Part shown: in pieces, positions 4,036-28,501 of the stretch
Position numbering within the stretch: position 1 is the stretch's first letter
Layout of the letters: every line of letters begins with the position of its first letter
The notes under the pieces: generated by a model
The model's database searches: none
Told to the model about the DNA's origin: nothing
The model's input: only the letters and a program-made list of their open reading frames with translations
Position numbers and translations under genes: made by a program
Source of the DNA: Chryseobacterium cheonjiense
Lineage (GTDB): Bacteria; Bacteroidota; Bacteroidia; Flavobacteriales; Weeksellaceae
Direction of reading: 5' to 3'
Length of the DNA: 64,000 nt
Assembly: GCF_012927265.1 (NCBI RefSeq)
Contig: NZ_JABBGF010000002.1
Location: forward strand, 372,001-436,000

Positions 4036-4800
4036 TTATACTGATGTTTTCAGCCATTCCGATTTAGAAAGATAATTCTGGTCCGGATAATAAATAAACA
4101 GAAGGTTTCTTCCTTTAATGGTGTTAATAATCGGCTGTGTAAGATCTCTCGGTACGGCAGGGCAGCCCCAGCTTCTTCCGATTCTTTTATGCATTGCGGC
4201 AAATTCATCGCTTACATAATCTGCGCCATGCATTACGATAGCTCTTCTGTACGCCGCATCATTAAATCCTTTATCCATTCCCAGTAATCTCAGGGAAAAT
4301 CCGTTGTCCCCGTTGTACGTTGCATCGGTAATATAAAAACCTAAACTACTTTGAAGCGAGCTATCGGTATTAGAAAAATTCGTTGCAAACTCTTCTCCGG
4401 TATTTTTACCGTGTGCTACCAGTGAGTTGAACAGTACTTTTCGCTCATTCACATCAATTACCCAAAGTCTTTTCGTATTAGAGGACATGGAAAAATCGCA
4501 TACCGTAAGTAAATGCGAATCCCGATTAAGCAAACCAGCTTTCTTCAAATTCTCAAACCCCGTTAAGGCTTTGAAGAAAACTTCTTCGCTAAGTTCATGT
4601 CCTTGTTCAAATGCGATAGATCTGTATAACTCTTCTGATGAGGATACTGTTTTCCCTGTTGTCTTTCCCGATTCTCCGTCGGTTACTCTTTCAATCTTTT
4701 TTGTACTGATTTCATTCCTGGCCTCTTTTTTTTCAGGCGACAAGTAGAATGAAGTAGTTACCATGTAAACAATAGTTAATACGCTATAAAATCCTTTCAT
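4036..4800 (-). CDS. YkuD_2-type murein L,D-transpeptidase catalytic-domain protein
   Basis: A 254-residue exported protein. A hydrophobic N-terminus (residues 2-20) acts as a signal peptide or anchor. The catalytic region near the C-terminus has His191 in VIMHGADYV and nucleophile Cys213 in GRSWGCPAVP, the HxxD...SxGCPA pattern of the Bacteroidota YkuD_2 family. Members may crosslink or modify peptidoglycan, although activity is rarely shown for this subgroup. The region before the domain (residues 20-75) is Lys/Glu/Ser-rich and likely a linker. It lies immediately upstream of the small cupin gene on the same strand. Confidence 0.82.
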   Translation of the reverse strand: MKGFYSVLTIVYMVTTSFYLSPEKKEARNEISTKKIERVTDGESGKTTGKTVSSSEELYRSIAFEQGHELSEEVFFKALTGFENLKKAGLLNRDSHLLTVCDFSMSSNTKRLWVIDVNERKVLFNSLVAHGKNTGEEFATNFSNTDSSLQSSLGFYITDATYNGDNGFSLRLLGMDKGFNDAAYRRAIVMHGADYVSDEFAAMHKRIGRSWGCPAVPRDLTQPIINTIKGRNLLFIYYPDQNYLSKSEWLKTSV

Positions 4801-4927
4801 TCAATATTATGTTAATCCAATTGAGTCAGCAAATGTATAAAAACATAAGTATCTGAAAGAATAACTCCACGGGTTTAACTCAAATTTAAGAAACTTTAAC
4901 TTCCTGATTTCGTGAATAAAAACTATT

Positions 4928-5371
4928 TTATATCTGTTCATCCGGAACAAATTCCAGACTCACGGAATTCATGCAGTACCTTAATCCGGTAGGCTTCGGA
5001 CCATCATCAAAAACATGCCCGAGATGGGAATCGCACCGTTTACACAGAACCTCTACCCTATCCATTCCGTAGGTTAGATCTCTTTTATAATAGACGCCTT
5101 CTTTATCCGCTTCAAAAAAGCTCGGCCATCCGCAGCTGCTGGAAAATTTTTCCGTGGACCTGAAGAGGTGATTTCCGCATACCGCACAGAAATATTCTCC
5201 CATTTGATCAAATTCATTGTATTTCCCGGTAAAGGCTCTTTCGGTTGCTGCTTCTCTTGCCACCGCGTACAGCTCAGGAGAAAGTATTTTTTGCCACTCA
5301 TCGTTGGGAATGTTAACCGGTGTTCTGTCTGTTCTTGAGTAGTATGGATTGTTTTTTGCTTCGTTTTGCAT
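4928..5371 (-). CDS. msrB: Peptide-methionine (R)-S-oxide reductase MsrB
   Basis: A 147-residue enzyme that reduces the R-epimer of methionine sulfoxide in proteins. Zinc ligands are Cys62 and Cys65 (CAVC) and Cys110 and Cys113 (CKRC). The family block CGWPSFF starts at Cys80, which could resolve the disulfide, and the catalytic Cys133 lies in RYCMNSVSLEF. There is no signal peptide, so this is a cytoplasmic form. All residues expected for activity are present and the length matches stand-alone MsrB. It is separated by about 125 nt from the L,D-transpeptidase gene, so it is probably transcribed on its own. Confidence 0.95.
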   Translation of the reverse strand: MQNEAKNNPYYSRTDRTPVNIPNDEWQKILSPELYAVAREAATERAFTGKYNEFDQMGEYFCAVCGNHLFRSTEKFSSSCGWPSFFEADKEGVYYKRDLTYGMDRVEVLCKRCDSHLGHVFDDGPKPTGLRYCMNSVSLEFVPDEQI

Positions 5372-8929: not shown

Positions 8930-8999
8930 AGGAGCTATTTCCCGCTTTCCATTACAATCTTTTTTTTCAAAAAGGATTTTCATTGCAATCGGGGCTAGG
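8930..8999 (+). repeat. REP-like dispersed element, copy A
   Basis: Blocks in order are AGGAGCTATTTCCCGCTTT, ATCTTTTTTTT, AAAAAGGAT and GCAATCGGGGCTA. The central T-run and AAAAAGGAT can pair into a hairpin. The same ordered blocks recur at 28372-28464 and, on the minus strand and degenerated, at 10121-10238. Confidence 0.7.
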
Positions 9000-9056
9000 G
9001 TTGCAGTTGGTTGTTCCATAGTGTGCAATAAATGAAGTCTGTCTTTTAACTGTGTT

Positions 9057-11954: not shown

Positions 11955-13091
11955 ATGATGGTTATTATTTATATGATTACAATTCTAGTAATCGCAGCAG
12001 CACTTTTCTATCTTTTCGGATACAGTTATATTTTTAACGGAATTTCAAAAACCTATCTGAAGGGAAAAATGAGCGCTCATATTGATGACGGAAAGTTTTT
12101 CACCCACAATGTCATCGCTGCCGGCAATCCTGCCCCTTGGGAAAAAGATCCGGAATACAATAAAACCCCATTACCGGAAAATATCGTTGAAGATTTGCAC
12201 CATTCCAACACGGCTTCTTTTCTTGTGGTAAAAAACGGTAAACTCATTCATGAACAATACTGGAACGGCTATACTGAATTGTCAAAGACCAATTCTTTTT
12301 CCATGGCAAAGGCCGTCACCGTCATGCTTTTTGGTAAAGCTGTTGAAGAAGGAAAAATCAAAAGTATTGATGATAAGTTTTCTGATTATTTTCCGGAATT
12401 TAAAAACAAAGCATTTGCTGAAAATTTAACACTGAAAAATCTGGCCCAGATGGAATCCGGCCTGAACTGGGAAGAAAACTATAAAAATCCTTTTTTACCG
12501 AATGCCAAAGCCTACTACGGAAGAAGTCTTATAAAAGCTACTTTTTCAAGAACATTTAAGCATCATCCCGGAGAACGATTTGAATACCAAAGCGGTTCTA
12601 CCCAACTGCTGGGCTTCGCGGTGAAAAAAGCAGTTAACCAGACTCTTGCGAGCTATTTATCTGAAAAAATATGGACTCCGCTCGGGATGGAACATCAGGC
12701 AGAATGGAGCACAGACGAAAGCGGGATGGAAAAAACCTATTGCTGCATCCATGCTACAACCCGGGATTTTGCAAAGCTGGGACAGTTATTCCTGAATAAC
12801 GGCAAAGCAGGAGAAAAGCAGATTCTAAATCCTGATTTTATCAATCAAATGCGGACTCCTACAGAAAAATCTGAAGAAATCTATGGAATGGGATTCTGGA
12901 TTAATTATGACAATCCAATTAAACATTATTATTTTTTAGGACTTCAGGGACAATACATCATCATGGTTCCTGAACACAATATGGTTATCGTAAGAACAGG
13001 AAGCTACAACAATATCCCGAAAAAAGACCGTGGAAGGCCCGACCAAGTAAAGTTCCTTGTGAATGAGACCGTACAATTATTTGCTGATTAA
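11955..13091 (+). CDS. Serine hydrolase, class C beta-lactamase/PBP4* family
   Basis: A 378-residue protein with one N-terminal membrane segment (residues 4-24) and an outside-facing beta-lactamase fold. The nucleophile motif S-x-x-K is Ser116-Met-Ala-Lys119, and the Tyr motif is Tyr211-Gln-Ser213. The third motif is probably in the GLQGQYI region. These features place it in the large family of penicillin-binding-like esterases and peptidases; true beta-lactam hydrolysis is not implied. The membrane anchor suggests a periplasmic role in cell-wall or ester turnover. Its last 4 bases overlap the stop of the convergent umuC gene. Confidence 0.85.
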   Translation: MMVIIYMITILVIAAALFYLFGYSYIFNGISKTYLKGKMSAHIDDGKFFTHNVIAAGNPAPWEKDPEYNKTPLPENIVEDLHHSNTASFLVVKNGKLIHEQYWNGYTELSKTNSFSMAKAVTVMLFGKAVEEGKIKSIDDKFSDYFPEFKNKAFAENLTLKNLAQMESGLNWEENYKNPFLPNAKAYYGRSLIKATFSRTFKHHPGERFEYQSGSTQLLGFAVKKAVNQTLASYLSEKIWTPLGMEHQAEWSTDESGMEKTYCCIHATTRDFAKLGQLFLNNGKAGEKQILNPDFINQMRTPTEKSEEIYGMGFWINYDNPIKHYYFLGLQGQYIIMVPEHNMVIVRTGSYNNIPKKDRGRPDQVKFLVNETVQLFAD

Positions 13092-14359
13092 TGAAACCTG
13101 AAATTGGCTTCCGTAAAAGTATTATTCTTCAGGAACGCTTCATATTCGGGAGATAATTGTTTTCTTCCGTAAGTATTTTCTCCACTCATACTTCCCAGGC
13201 GTACTTTATCTTTTCCGAATTTTTTATTCAATGCATCCATGGCTTTCATTACCGGCAAATGCTGATTTTGAGTATCTTCTTCGAAAAGGTTGATTAACCT
13301 TTGATCTTCGGGTACGAAATCATTGACAATTACTCCCGCTTTTTTATAATGGAATCCTTCTTTAAAAACAGCTTCAAACAATTCATTTACCACTCTTCCT
13401 ATCAGGATGGAAGAATTAGTAGGATTCGGGAGAATCTGTGTCACTGCATTTTTGTATTCCGGTAAATCTTTACGGAAACGATTAGTCTGTACGAAAACCG
13501 TTATCATTTTACAGCAGGTGTTTTGCTTTCTTAAACGCTCAGAGCAGTACATTCCAAAAGTTTCGACCCTTTCTCGCACCTCTTCTTTTTGGGTAAGCAT
13601 TTCCATAAAACTTCTCGTTACCGCGATGGATTTCTTCGGAGACGGAGCATCCAGTTCCAGCTGCCGGATTCCTTTGAGCTCGTTGATCATTCTTATCCCA
13701 TGAATTCCCATTACTTTACGCACCCACATTTCGGGTTTCTGCAGCAGATCCCACGCTTTATGAACACCGTTATCATTCATTTTTACGGCAAGTCTGCGCC
13801 CTATTCCCCATACATCTCCTATAGGCAGCCATTTTAAAGCTTTTTCAATTTTATCCGGTGTATCCAGTATAAATACTCCATCAAAATTATCAGGGTACTT
13901 TTTTACAATTCTGTTGGCAACCTTGCATAAGGTCTTTGTAGGGGCAATACCTATACTTACGGGAATATTGGCCTCCTTCCCGATCCTGTTTTTTATTTCA
14001 ATACAATAATCGTGGATGTTGATGTATTTAAAACCTGTGAAATCCAGAAACAATTCATCAATACTGTACACTTCATAATCCAGTACATACGATTTTGCTA
14101 TTTCAATAACCTGCTGACTTTTGAAATTATACAATTCAAATTTTGCAGAGAAACTCTTTACATTATGTTCTTTAAAAAGTTCTTTAAATTTAAAGGCAGG
14201 TGCCGCCATAGGAATTCCAAGATCCTTGGCTTCTCTGCTCCGGGACACAACACATCCGTCGTTGTTGGAAAGTACAACAACAGGCTGATTTTCAAGCGCA
14301 GGATCTAAAGTCCGCTCGCAGGAAACAAAGAAATTATTACAGTCTACCAGAGCATACAT
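13088..14359 (-). CDS. umuC: Y-family translesion DNA polymerase, UmuC type
   Basis: A 423-residue polymerase V catalytic subunit that copies past DNA lesions. Metal-binding residues are Asp6 in ALVDCNNFF and Asp101-Glu102 in YSIDELFLDF. The UmuC-type finger motif SNNDGCVVSRSREAK spans 31-45. A helix-hairpin-helix region (WGIGRRLAVKM) and little-finger domain follow. The length equals E. coli UmuC. No umuD gene is adjacent, which is unusual, since the active enzyme needs processed UmuD. The upstream gap is shared with the divergent M15 peptidase gene. A candidate minus-strand TAATTTTG box lies at 14386-14393. Confidence 0.93.
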   Translation of the reverse strand: MYALVDCNNFFVSCERTLDPALENQPVVVLSNNDGCVVSRSREAKDLGIPMAAPAFKFKELFKEHNVKSFSAKFELYNFKSQQVIEIAKSYVLDYEVYSIDELFLDFTGFKYINIHDYCIEIKNRIGKEANIPVSIGIAPTKTLCKVANRIVKKYPDNFDGVFILDTPDKIEKALKWLPIGDVWGIGRRLAVKMNDNGVHKAWDLLQKPEMWVRKVMGIHGIRMINELKGIRQLELDAPSPKKSIAVTRSFMEMLTQKEEVRERVETFGMYCSERLRKQNTCCKMITVFVQTNRFRKDLPEYKNAVTQILPNPTNSSILIGRVVNELFEAVFKEGFHYKKAGVIVNDFVPEDQRLINLFEEDTQNQHLPVMKAMDALNKKFGKDKVRLGSMSGENTYGRKQLSPEYEAFLKNNTFTEANFRFH

Positions 14360-14480: not shown

Positions 14481-14516
14481 TACGTCAAGTTTTGTCGTCA
14501 TATACCTGTAATTTTG
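14481..14516 (+). promoter_or_regulatory. Shared-element promoter 1 (M15 peptidase gene)
   Basis: Element TACGTCAAGTTTTGTCGT at 14481-14498, then TAATTTTG at 14509-14516. There are 14 nt between the TG of the right arm and the box. It is one of four promoters in this region with identical layout and is the likely binding site of the WYL regulator at 17374. The left arm (CGTCA) is imperfect here; the right arm (TGTCG) is exact. Confidence 0.75.
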
Positions 14517-14541: not shown

Positions 14542-15042
14542 ATGGATAAAGTAACAGTACAAAGAATTGAAAAGCTGCATCCTCTTGTAAGGGAAGAGGT
14601 AAAACAGATCATAGAAGATTGTGATGAAGCATTAAGCGGAAGAGCAAAAGTAAGAATTACACAAGGTCTGCGAAGCTTTGAAGAGCAGGAAAAACTGTAC
14701 GCGATCGGAAGAATTACTTCCGGAAAAAAAGTGACCAATGCCAAAGCCGGCCAGAGCATTCACAATTATGGACTCGCCGTTGATATATGCATGATGATCG
14801 ACGGCAAGACAGCCAGCTGGGACACGGTGAAAGATTGGGATAATGACAGGGTGGCCGACTGGTATGAATGTGTGAAAATTTTTGCTAAATACGGCTGGGA
14901 CTGGGGCGGCAACTGGAAAACTTTCAAGGACCTCCCCCACTTTGAGAAAAAAGCCATCCTAACGGAGAAAGGTATGGTGAAAACAAGCTGGCGAAACCTG
15001 ATTAAAATGAAGCGGGATAAAGAAAATTATATAATTTTTTAA
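14542..15042 (+). CDS. M15-family peptidase, endolysin-like L-alanyl-D-glutamate peptidase
   Basis: A 166-residue zinc peptidase of the VanY/M15 group that cuts peptide stems of peptidoglycan. Zinc ligands are visible as His74 and Asp81 in SIHNYGLAVD and His133 in DLPHFE, with TQGLRSFEEQ (40-49) forming the substrate edge. The pattern and length match phage-type endolysins (Peptidase_M15_4) rather than membrane-anchored VanY. There is no signal peptide or membrane segment, so it would need a route out, lysis or a cytoplasmic role. It is preceded by one of four identical-layout promoters, linking it to the patatin and WYL genes downstream. Confidence 0.85.
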   Translation: MDKVTVQRIEKLHPLVREEVKQIIEDCDEALSGRAKVRITQGLRSFEEQEKLYAIGRITSGKKVTNAKAGQSIHNYGLAVDICMMIDGKTASWDTVKDWDNDRVADWYECVKIFAKYGWDWGGNWKTFKDLPHFEKKAILTEKGMVKTSWRNLIKMKRDKENYIIF

Positions 15043-15070: not shown

Positions 15071-15106
15071 TACGACAAGTTCTGTCGCTTCCCAGTCCTA
15101 CTTTTG
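15071..15106 (+). promoter_or_regulatory. Shared-element promoter 2 (patatin gene)
   Basis: Element TACGACAAGTTCTGTCGC at 15071-15088, with perfect arms CGACA and TGTCG around 5 nt. TACTTTTG follows at 15099-15106 with the same 14-nt spacing. The flank TTATTTTAATACG is shared with promoter 1. Confidence 0.78.
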
Positions 15107-15228: not shown

Positions 15229-16266
15229 ATGAAAAAGACAACCATTCTATCTTTGGACGGGGGCGGAATCAGGGGAATCATCACCTGCATTATTCTGCGT
15301 TACATAGAAGAACAGCTGCAGATTTATGATAATCCGGGAGCCAAACTCGGAGATTATTTTGATTTTGTTGCAGGAAGCAGTACAGGCGGTCTGATTGCAT
15401 CTATTATTCTATGTCCCGATGAACACCGAAAAGCAAAATATTCCATTCAGAAAGGATTGGAGCTTTATGCTGAAAAAGGTGGCGACATATTCCAGGTTTC
15501 TTTCTGGGAAACACTCATCAATCCTTTTGGGTTGATTAACGAAAAAATATCCCAGAAAGCACTTGAAAAAAATCTGAATGACTTTTTTGGAAATTTAGAA
15601 TTAAAAGAACTGATAAAACCATGTTTAATAACGAGTTATGATATTGAAAACAGAAGAGCAAAGCTCTTTAATTCCTGGAAGGCGAGGCTTAACACTGACA
15701 ACTTTTATGTGCGGGATGTATGCCGGGCAACTTCAGCGGCACCTACTTATTTTTCGCCGGTTCAGATTAAATCAATGTACGGGCAGATTTTCAGCCTGAT
15801 CGATGGCGGCATGTTTGCGAATAACCCATCACTATGCGCGTATGCGGAAGCCCGAAAAATTCCTTTTGCCGAAATATTGAAAAATAATCAGAAAACCAAC
15901 CATCCTACCGTAAATGATATGATCGTCATTTCTATCGGGACCGGTATTGAAGCACGCGCTTATTCTTTCAAAAAGCTTGAAAAGGCAGGAAAAATAAGCT
16001 GGGTGAATCCCATCATCGATATTTTAATGTCGGCCAATGCGGAAACAGTAGATTATCAGCTTTGCCAGATGTTTGATACACTGGGACAGCGAAATCAGAA
16101 AAATTATTACCGCCTTAATCCTTCATTGAAAAATGCATCTCCGGCAATGGACAATGTAAAAAGGTCCAATATTGAAAATCTGATACAGGCCGGGTTATGC
16201 TATATTGACGATAACCGGGATGTTCTTAATCAGATCGTACAGAAGCTGATTAAAAATAAAATATAA
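15229..16266 (+). CDS. Patatin-like phospholipase
   Basis: A 345-residue lipid acyl hydrolase. The oxyanion motif GGGIRG lies at 11-16, the nucleophile elbow GSSTG at 49-53 (Ser51), and the catalytic Asp192 in LIDGGMFANNP, the full Ser-Asp dyad of patatins. It has no signal peptide or membrane segment, so it would attack inner-membrane phospholipids from the cytoplasm, like the CapV-type effectors of CBASS. No nucleotidyltransferase (CD-NTase) gene is nearby, so this is not a canonical CBASS operon. It is transcribed from promoter 2 of the shared set, with a hairpin in its leader. Confidence 0.88.
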   Translation: MKKTTILSLDGGGIRGIITCIILRYIEEQLQIYDNPGAKLGDYFDFVAGSSTGGLIASIILCPDEHRKAKYSIQKGLELYAEKGGDIFQVSFWETLINPFGLINEKISQKALEKNLNDFFGNLELKELIKPCLITSYDIENRRAKLFNSWKARLNTDNFYVRDVCRATSAAPTYFSPVQIKSMYGQIFSLIDGGMFANNPSLCAYAEARKIPFAEILKNNQKTNHPTVNDMIVISIGTGIEARAYSFKKLEKAGKISWVNPIIDILMSANAETVDYQLCQMFDTLGQRNQKNYYRLNPSLKNASPAMDNVKRSNIENLIQAGLCYIDDNRDVLNQIVQKLIKNKI

Positions 16267-16328: not shown

Positions 16329-16364
16329 CACGTCATGTTTTGTCGTTACGGCAAAATATCTTTG
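16329..16364 (+). promoter_or_regulatory. Shared-element promoter 3 (small broken ORF)
   Basis: Element CACGTCATGTTTTGTCGT at 16329-16346, then TATCTTTG at 16357-16364, again 14 nt apart. It is 62 nt after the patatin stop. Confidence 0.72.
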
Positions 16365-16386
16365 AATCAGAATTAAAACAATAACC

Positions 16387-16608
16387 ATGAAAACTCAAAT
16401 TATTCAGATTTATCTAAAACTATAACCTATTCAAATACATAACCATGGAAACACCAACTCATCATTCCGATACTCTGTTTTCGATGAAGATTTTTATGCT
16501 ATTGACTGGAACGAAATCGAAAATACAGAAATAGATTATGAAAATTTTCTCAGTGACATTGAAAACTTTTTTCGGGATGATTTTGAAAACGAAACTCTTG
16601 ATGAATAA
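16387..16608 (+). pseudogene. Small acidic ORF interrupted by an in-frame stop
   Basis: An ATG at 16387 opens 12 codons (MKTQIIQIYLKL) and stops at TAA 16423. The same frame then stays open to the stop at 16606-16608, coding a strongly acidic tail (FDEDFYAIDWNEIENTEIDY, then more Asp/Glu ending ETLDE). No ATG, GTG or TTG restarts that frame. A second ATG at 16445 lies in another frame and stops after 29 codons. Either the gene is broken by a point stop or indel, or its start is non-standard. It lies right behind promoter 3. Highly acidic small proteins sometimes act as inhibitors, but that is speculation here. Confidence 0.4.
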
Positions 16609-16678
16609 AAACTAACAACCATTCACATAAACATTAAGAACTCCGCAGAAAATCCTGCGGAGTTTACTTTAGGTAAAG

Positions 16679-17257: not shown

Positions 17258-17293
17258 CACGACACGTTTTGTCGCATTAAGCTTATATATTTG
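17258..17293 (+). promoter_or_regulatory. Shared-element promoter 4 (WYL regulator gene)
   Basis: Element CACGACACGTTTTGTCGC at 17258-17275, with perfect arms CGACA and TGTCG. TATATTTG follows at 17286-17293 with the same 14-nt spacing. Its place before the regulator gene implies autoregulation. Confidence 0.78.
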
Positions 17294-17373: not shown

Positions 17374-18294
17374 ATGAAAAAAGACTTTTACCTGACCAGA
17401 TACGCTTTGATAATCAAAAGATTAGAAAGTTCTCCAGCGACCTATTCACAGCTGGAAGACTACCTGCTCAACTCTTTTGAATTTCAGGACGCGGGCATTA
17501 AAAGCTATTCGATCCGTACTTTGCAGAGAGATATCCGTGAAATTTCCGACCTGTTTAATCTATCCATCCACAACAAGAAGAAAGGTGATAACCGATATTA
17601 TATTGAGAGCCGTCCCATTATGGAAGTGGATGAGTATAACCAGAAATTACTCGAATCGTTCCAGGTAAGCAATGCCCTGAATCTTCATCCCGATTTCTCA
17701 GATTTTATCTTTTTTGAAAGCAGAAAACCTACAGGCGTTGAACATTTTTATGACCTGTTCTTTGCCATCAGAAATAAAAGAATTGTCTCTTTTGAACATT
17801 ATAATTATAAAAATAAACTGATGACTTCCCGAAAGGTACACCCTCTTGCTTTAAAAGAATCCAAAGACCGATGGTATCTCATCGCTATTGATACCAAGGA
17901 TAAAATGCTGAAATCTTTCGGGCTGGACAGGATCAATTATTTGGATGTTTCCAACAGCAAATTCAAGGAAAAATATAAATATAATTTCAGGGAACATTTT
18001 AAAAATGCTTTCGGAGTAATGAATCTTACAGCTCAAAATCCTCAGAAAATTGTTCTCAAATGCAGCAGGCATCAGGGAGAGTATATCAAAAGTTTCCCCC
18101 TTCACCAGTCTCAGAAAGAAGTAAAGGAAACCCCGGAAGACATCTATTTTGAATTTTTCCTTCATCCCACTTACGACTTTATGCAGGAGATTTTATCGTA
18201 TGGAAAAGAAGTGCAGGTTTTAGAACCGAAAATTTTAGTTGATGAAATACGCAGCCATCTGCAGGAGTCGCTGAACAGCTATCTTAAGGACTGA
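17374..18294 (+). CDS. HTH-WYL transcriptional regulator
   Basis: A 306-residue regulator with an N-terminal winged-helix HTH (recognition-helix region SYSIRTLQRDIREISDLF at 45-62). The WYL ligand-sensing domain lies at about 120-195 with the diagnostic DRWYLIAIDT (166-175) and SFGLDRI (181-187), and a WCX-like C-terminal extension runs to 306. Characterised WYL proteins sense nucleic acid or nucleotides and control DNA-damage or phage-defence genes (PafBC, DriD, CapW/BrxR). It is preceded by shared-element promoter 4. Being the only regulator among the four promoters, it is the likely factor binding the ACGWCA-N5-TGTCG element. Activator or repressor cannot be decided. Confidence 0.9.
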   Translation: MKKDFYLTRYALIIKRLESSPATYSQLEDYLLNSFEFQDAGIKSYSIRTLQRDIREISDLFNLSIHNKKKGDNRYYIESRPIMEVDEYNQKLLESFQVSNALNLHPDFSDFIFFESRKPTGVEHFYDLFFAIRNKRIVSFEHYNYKNKLMTSRKVHPLALKESKDRWYLIAIDTKDKMLKSFGLDRINYLDVSNSKFKEKYKYNFREHFKNAFGVMNLTAQNPQKIVLKCSRHQGEYIKSFPLHQSQKEVKETPEDIYFEFFLHPTYDFMQEILSYGKEVQVLEPKILVDEIRSHLQESLNSYLKD

Positions 18295-28371: not shown

Positions 28372-28464
28372 AGGAGCTTTTTCCCGCTTTTTGCTTTATC
28401 TTTTTTGTTTCGCAATTTTCAGGGCCTCCGCAGATAAAAAAGGATGCCGCGGCAATCGGGGCTA
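28372..28464 (+). repeat. REP-like dispersed element, copy B
   Basis: Blocks AGGAGCTTTTTCCCGCTTTT, ATCTTTTTT, AAAAAGGAT and GCAATCGGGGCTA appear in the same order as copy A at 8930, but with a different central insert (about 30 nt) between the T-run and AAAAAGGAT. Confidence 0.7.
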
Positions 28465-28466
28465 AG

Positions 28467-28501
28467 AAAACCGGAGGCTTCGACCCTCAGCCTCCGGTTT
28501 T
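28467..28501. terminator. Orphan terminator-like hairpin attached to REP copy B
   Basis: AAAACCGGAGGCT pairs perfectly with AGCCTCCGGTTTT (13 bp, 9-nt loop). No known gene ends here on either strand, since the flanking genes diverge. It may close a small RNA or belong to the repeat. Confidence 0.55.

Follow-up and report, generated by a model that had tools for sequence, protein, structure and literature searches.

The window, the whole 64,000-nucleotide stretch of Chryseobacterium cheonjiense DNA that was analyzed, very probably carries at 16445-16608 what a frameshift has left of a gene, found genus-wide, that encodes a very acidic protein of about 56 amino acids. Taken as a whole, the explanation that we consider probable is that a DriD-like WYL regulon has lost one of its accessory genes here. 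The gene belongs to a conserved cluster of an M15 peptidase, a patatin, the acidic gene and a WYL regulator, with the same promoter at each gene. The first-pass annotation of 16329-16608 made an observation that is real yet was misread; the observation is partly confirmed and its interpretation is supported in part. The features of the acidic locus are the following.

16331-16345, + strand: palindromic operator CGTCATGTTTTGTCG (CGWCA-N5-TGTCG class) of the acidic gene
16357-16364, + strand: element TATCTTTG, taken as a Bacteroidota -7 element, exactly 11 bp after the operator
16387-16425, + strand: 12-codon ORF, first taken as the gene start; part of the 5' leader, unconserved in length and sequence
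16445-16608, + strand: relic of the small acidic gene (56-aa family); ATG 16445 (METPTHHSDT...), frame change near codons 9-13, TAA 16606-16608
16639-16664, strand unassigned: terminator-like hairpin between the acidic gene and a converging RidA-type gene; a pattern match only, reported on the - strand

The Broken Acidic Gene

The letters bear out what was first read. ATG 16387 is followed by 12 codons (MKTQIIQIYLKL) and TAA 16423-16425, after which 60 codons stay open in the same frame up to TAA 16606-16608; they encode a very acidic peptide, with a net charge of -16 over its last 42 residues. By itself the openness of this run is weak evidence, as the intergenic region, when shuffled 2000 times, gave a stop-free run of at least 60 codons on the + strand in 266 cases. 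The acidic frame is considered real because of homology, not openness. Relatives have an open gene of roughly 56 codons that aligns with the window from about 16441 to 16605 and whose start coincides with ATG 16445. From this ATG the window reads METPTHHSDTLF and then falls out of frame; the acidic frame picks up the family sequence again with FDEDFYAIDW...TLDE. The number of codons in the first part of the gene is identical in 78 of 80 copies, and also across 26 aligned rows, whereas the window stretch exceeds the first part of the family by a net two bases, or differs by one base in the other direction. One additional T in the run of Ts at 16478-16481 was considered as the lesion and rejected, since the codon alignment gives a net two-base length difference. 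The profile match of the window copy covers model positions 11-53 only, in a frame different from that of ATG 16445; it is not a whole-length match in one frame, and the copy is classed as a relic rather than an intact member. A distant DNA search of a phage collection gave no match, and Rfam had no family at the locus.

It had been proposed that a single gene starts at ATG 16387 and is cut by the stop at 16423. What stands of this proposal is a damaged gene with a truly coding acidic frame; its start and its site of damage do not stand, as the gene of relatives begins in another frame at the position of ATG 16445, the supposed lesion falls within the leader and the frame changes near codons 9-13. 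The ORF at 16387 is a leader fragment and no gene start. In G139, G169 and G177, picked as close relatives by a WYL identity of 95-97%, the matching ATG opens 3, 8 and 18 codons, respectively. The genome of the window has four other places that match the context of ATG 16387, AATAACCATGAAAACTCAAATTA; they belong to an intergenic element that adjoins a hairpin. The idea that the ATG 16387 stretch is a tandem duplicate was considered and rejected.

The intergenic repeat (L096-L099; contig C3 about 368300 and contig C1 about 1460300, 1605800, and 2218600 of the same genome) is made up of a hairpin and, after it, TAAAAACTAATAACCATGAAAACTCAAATTAAACATGAG. Many places in the genus match short pieces of this repeat, and it has no Rfam family at gathering score. 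It is possibly a terminator, or a small RNA of the opposite strand.

Recoding and an unusual start had also been suggested for the open acidic frame. They would take the form of a programmed -1 shift from ATG 16445 into this frame or of initiation at ATT or ATA. The downstream frame is indeed open and mostly constrained, and between 16445 and 16531 neither frame has a stop. Against this, the frame of ATG 16445 has no XXXYYYZ slippery heptamer, and the acidic frame has no ATG, GTG, TTG, or CTG, just ATT, ATA, and ATC. Because the aligned relatives read without a shift, nothing conserved calls for recoding, and we regard it as very improbable.

The Acidic Family in Relatives

A DNA search of 59 genomes, including that of the window, matched 35 of the 35 other genus genomes at E 4.0e-5 or better, though some of these matches (e.g., G010 and G028) are to the short leader repeat only and not to the gene. 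The family profile matched 139 of 149 genus genomes, a count that includes the broken copy of the window and some partial copies with a different C-terminal part (e.g., G025, G287, G317, and G012, model 1-39 to 1-45), and gave no match in 10 of the 149. In three genomes without a match (G010, G187, and G248) the WYL gene follows the patatin gene within 147-212 bp, and therefore the acidic gene is really absent there. In other genera of the taxonomic family the profile matched 11 of 147 genomes. Seven of these matches (six in g28 and one in g45) adjoin a patatin gene; the remaining four (g42) are partial, lie on other contigs or far from patatin where both places are listed, and are doubtful as members. 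In a draw of 246 genomes from the order there were 22 matches, every one in the same taxonomic family.

The first-pass annotation was to be given up if the acidic frame lacked conservation or an excess of synonymous change in relatives. The frame is kept in relatives and is under purifying selection there. Median dN/dS is 0.098 over 42 codons (1376 pairs with dS 0.1-1.5), and for the first 40 sequences the true frame has a pN/pS of 0.112 vs. 1.476 and 1.340 for the other two. The selection set comprised 82 open copies (80 loci, G139, and G169), or 80 unique ones after the duplicates L136 and L145 were dropped; the 80 loci were those with the highest scores among 97 found, and damaged relatives are thus under-represented. 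An ATG stands at the aligned start in 77 of the 80, L184, L189, and L198 being the exceptions, and G278 (L104) also has no ATG at the usual place; the missing ATG in L184, L189, and L104 is perhaps independent decay. An inner stop was flagged in three genomes and dismissed in each case, as G246 and G236 just end earlier and the third is G278.

Members of the family are 51-62 residues long with a net charge of -14 to -20 (median -18), and their C-terminal half is amphipathic, with a helical moment of up to 0.50 among the segments listed. With 34 members, Pfam gave nothing below E 0.036 and the PDB no significant match (best E 0.6); one member matched nothing in PHROGs or NCBIfam. As the leading idea, and a tentative one, the protein may be a cytoplasmic accessory factor with a basic binding partner. 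The role is graded low because the evidence for it consists of the promoter, the place after patatin, the charge and the amphipathic C-terminal half.

Decay or Sequence Error

If the gene were intact in the living strain, the deposited letters alone would shift the frame. The remainder of the frame is largely kept and the length change is small, as a sequence or assembly error would have it: against all open copies the window copy has a pN/pS of 0.234 (rank 3 of 81), inside the range of the open copies (0.096-0.309, median 0.145). However, the window copy departs from the family at 5 of 19 columns conserved to at least 95%, and each of the 80 open copies at two or fewer, the conserved columns being chosen without the sequence under test. 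With conservation set at 90%, departures are 7 of 24 vs. four or fewer in open copies, and at 98% they are 3 of 13 vs. two or fewer. A net two bases, or one the other way, in a part of constant length also differs from one miscounted base of a long run, and the gene is lost elsewhere (no usual ATG in G278, L184, and L189; no match in the 10 genus genomes). We hold an error to be rather unlikely. The departures at 5 of 19 columns seem to fit real decay better than an assembly error. They fit, without proving it, a break recent enough to keep most of the sequence and old enough for abnormal replacements. Since the pN/pS of the relic lies within the range of open copies, so that much constraint is kept, the break may even be very recent.

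A Promoter Class Shared With Lysis-Type Genes

The neighboring genes and their promoters are the following.

14483-14516, + strand: same promoter before the M15 gene (operator 14483-14497, -7 element 14509-14516)
14542-15042, + strand: M15 peptidase of phage-endolysin type
15073-15106, + strand: same promoter before the patatin gene
15229-16266, + strand: patatin-like phospholipase, CBASS CapV-like
17260-17293, + strand: same promoter before the WYL gene
17374-18294, + strand: WYL-WCX transcription factor, the putative regulator of the promoter class

The good shared promoter of the first-pass annotation holds up, its operator and -7 element being laid out as at 14483, 15073, and 17260. At the acidic, M15, patatin and WYL genes the palindrome CGWCA-N5-TGTCG is separated by exactly 11 bp from a downstream TAnnTTTG, which we take to be the Bacteroidota -7 element. 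In the 80 loci of relatives there are 895 motif matches (both strands, up to 2 mismatches, so one palindrome may count once per strand). TAnnTTTG stands at exactly 11 bp in 317 of them, and 27 other spacings total 13. The full operator-N11-TAnnTTTG promoter precedes the acidic gene in 78 of the 80 relatives (up to 3 mismatches, within 400 bp; L186 and L194 are the misses), and the window copy has it at 16331-16364. Of the 295 unique sites tabulated by base, 58% have CGTC as the left half instead of CGAC. The site ATACGACACGTTTTGTCGTAT of L046 is a full DriD-type consensus, and the site of the acidic gene itself, ACACGTCATGTTTTGTCGTTA, is a weaker match to it.

In the genome of the window the exact motif is enriched (11+3 vs. 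1+0 for the control), and the -7 element follows at 11 bp in 10 of 14 exact sites; of 18 one-mismatch sites 16 were examined, and it follows at that distance in two of these as well. A sigma-70 scan was uninformative here (15 sites vs. 16.3 expected from shuffles) and the -7 element model was used instead. These promoters showed no -33 element at the spacing where one is usual. The conserved motif is neither GGA-N5-TCC nor CTAA-N5-TTAG, the Bacteroidetes LexA operators.

The M15 peptidase is named by Pfam and its endolysin families by PHROGs. The patatin is named by Pfam and scores 162.1 bits with NCBIfam CBASS_lipase, below the 200-bit cut-off. This lysis-like set fits the lytic regulon that was first proposed, and the promoter class looks like a DNA-damage switch for cell-lysing enzymes. 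In the genome of the window its targets are the M15, patatin, acidic and WYL genes, an HNH protein, a 238-aa protein and four T9SS-sorted paralogues that look like beta-propellers, the propeller model being below its cut-off. UmuC (13088-14359, - strand) was considered as a target and rejected, as no full promoter site faces it in the window.

Several further observations were made around these promoters. T9SS-sorted propeller-like paralogues with the same promoter class are found at L048, L049, L050, L059, L066, and L111 of the same genome, and at L111 the paralogue is followed by a 933-aa protein without an NCBIfam match. In the close relatives G139 and G198, patatin and the shared promoter are followed by a three-gene set (198 or 213, 227, and 184 aa) that is absent at this place in the window.

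L100:2997-4896, - strand: three-gene set
L103:3667-5614, + strand: three-gene set

At 32 loci the same promoter is followed by proteins grouped by similarity, perhaps a polymorphic family. Those of L131 (promoter at about 6184) and L135 (about 6426, + strand) have a common N-terminus (MKTK-(D/E)L---FENGDKPTQ--FW-WQDSYWHK) and differ in the rest. On contig C1 of the window's genome (L113:2220-4160 and 4306-5013) a reverse-transcriptase-like protein, named by eye, is followed by the shared promoter and the HNH protein; an integrase-like gene, also named by eye, is nearby, and a mobile element is possible. The window also has two Flavo-1 small RNAs (Rfam RF01705) on the - strand, at 8934-9000 (67.4 bits) and 28376-28467 (59.5 bits).

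The acidic protein could also be an antidote to, or inhibitor of, the neighboring patatin or endolysin. Its gene lies near patatin in most genus stretches read and in seven genomes of two other genera, it shares the promoter class, and the protein is strongly acidic. However, eight genus genomes have WYL and patatin genes and no match to the acidic gene, so that the partnership is not obligatory, and the strain of the window lost the acidic gene while its patatin is still open. We consider an antidote unlikely.

The WYL Regulator

The WYL protein matches Pfam PF13280 (WYL) and PF25583 (WCX) above cut-off. Its N-terminal part, where a DriD-type activator would have a winged HTH DNA-binding domain, has no Pfam match, and no PDB match to a WYL regulator begins before query residue 115. 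DriD and PafB/PafBC chains lead the PDB matches, weakly with the single WYL sequence (E 4.8e-5 to 2.1e-4) and at E 2.2e-6 to 2.4e-5 with a WYL profile, in both cases over WYL/WCX only. Of these chains, 8TP8 is named as DriD in the accessible part of PMC11804915, and 7TZV and 9PFQ are each mentioned once in that of the DriD preprint PMC12340889; 7U02 and 9CU3 are counted as DriD as well on account of their alignment, and 7P5X/9FND as PafB because PafC is the name of their partner chain.

Motif and WYL gene go together across the family. Among family members outside the genus the mean count of the exact motif is 3.0 in 23 genomes with a WYL gene (orthologue at E 1e-60 or better) vs. 0.40 in 124 without, and a control pattern gives 0.70 vs. 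0.35; the Mann-Whitney p of 4e-11 is a guide only, as phylogenetic dependence inflates it. Among 33 genomes chosen for this comparison (10 from the genus that have no acidic gene and 23 from other genera that have WYL) patatin is present in 31 of 31 with WYL and in 0 of 2 without. These two genus genomes without WYL (G205 and G251) also have neither the acidic gene nor patatin. Quite probably, then, judging from sequence comparison, the WYL protein controls this promoter class, and from the promoter at 17260 its own gene is presumably autoregulated.

The direction of control is a separate matter. The WYL protein might be a repressor, like CapW or BrxR, of a phage-defense or lysis set that would be released by a ligand other than the single-stranded DNA (ssDNA) of damage. 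WYL repressors are known to control defense systems (CapW, accessible part of PMC9122588), the patatin resembles CBASS phospholipase effectors, and a site over the -33 region could equally block polymerase. However, CapW sites overlap the -10 element in the same source, and here the spacing to the -7 element is rigid (317 vs. 13 matches) and the missing -33 element at the usual spacing is as expected of an activator. We consider a repressor possible but less likely, and favor an activator because of the rigid operator-to--7 spacing and the -33 position.

Comparison With Known Systems and Proposed Mechanism

The closest parallel is DriD, the WYL activator of an SOS-independent damage response in Caulobacter crescentus. 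As far as the accessible text of PMC12340889 goes, the DriD site is ATACGAC-N7-GTCGTAT, placed over the -35 element at one fixed distance from the -10 element. In the available descriptions DriD shares with the system here a WYL-domain regulator, a site motif with the core CGAC-N7-GTCG that covers the -35/-33 region and keeps one distance to the core promoter, a copy of this motif upstream of the gene for the regulator itself, and a small-protein gene in the regulon (didA in Caulobacter; accessible part of PMC4211646). The present system differs in phylum and in its targets (endolysin-type M15, patatin and T9SS-sorted proteins), its left half-site is mostly CGTC, and the sequence similarity is weak and confined to the WYL/WCX part.

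Other systems share fewer features. PafBC of mycobacteria is also described, in the accessible sources, as a WYL activator of damage genes, with sigma adaptation around the -35 region, but it is a heterodimer with a non-palindromic motif, whereas one WYL gene and a palindrome are found here. The non-canonical LexA regulons of Bacteroidetes, as presented in the accessible part of PMC8565304, are likewise under SOS-like control at phylum level and include umuC-type genes; in contrast, they use S24-peptidase repressors and GGA-N5-TCC or CTAA-N5-TTAG sites. The words "WYL" and "Chryseobacterium" do not occur in the main text of that paper, and a search of open-license literature found nothing on a WYL regulon in Chryseobacterium, Bacteroidota or flavobacteria. 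CapW-regulated CBASS also pairs a WYL regulator with a CapV-like patatin. It differs in that CapW is a repressor binding over the -10 element (accessible part of PMC9122588), that the patatin here is below the CBASS_lipase cut-off, and that PADLOC, run on nine proteins, matched the patatin and the WYL protein alone and found no further CBASS part.

By analogy with DriD, the WYL protein would be activated by ssDNA after damage, for which we see about an even chance. We infer that the activated protein would bind CGAC-N7-GTCG-like sites over the -33 region and recruit RNA polymerase to promoters without a properly spaced -33 element, and so turn on hydrolases of the cell wall and membrane along with accessory genes. 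The acidic protein would be an accessory factor that tunes this response, dispensable and lost here. More speculatively, and with little confidence, the acidic polyanion could mimic the ssDNA ligand of the WYL domain in an ssDNA-sensing, LexA-independent WYL regulon of Chryseobacterium and some related genera. Damage would then lead to programmed lysis (endolysin and phospholipase) and expression of surface and secreted proteins, and the polyanion would be a feedback modulator that some lineages have lost.

The broken gene is ordinary in itself. The promoter class around it is a concrete candidate for a DriD-like WYL regulon in a phylum whose damage regulators, according to the accessible part of PMC8565304, are S24-type repressors, and it is a candidate switch tied to lysis-type enzymes.
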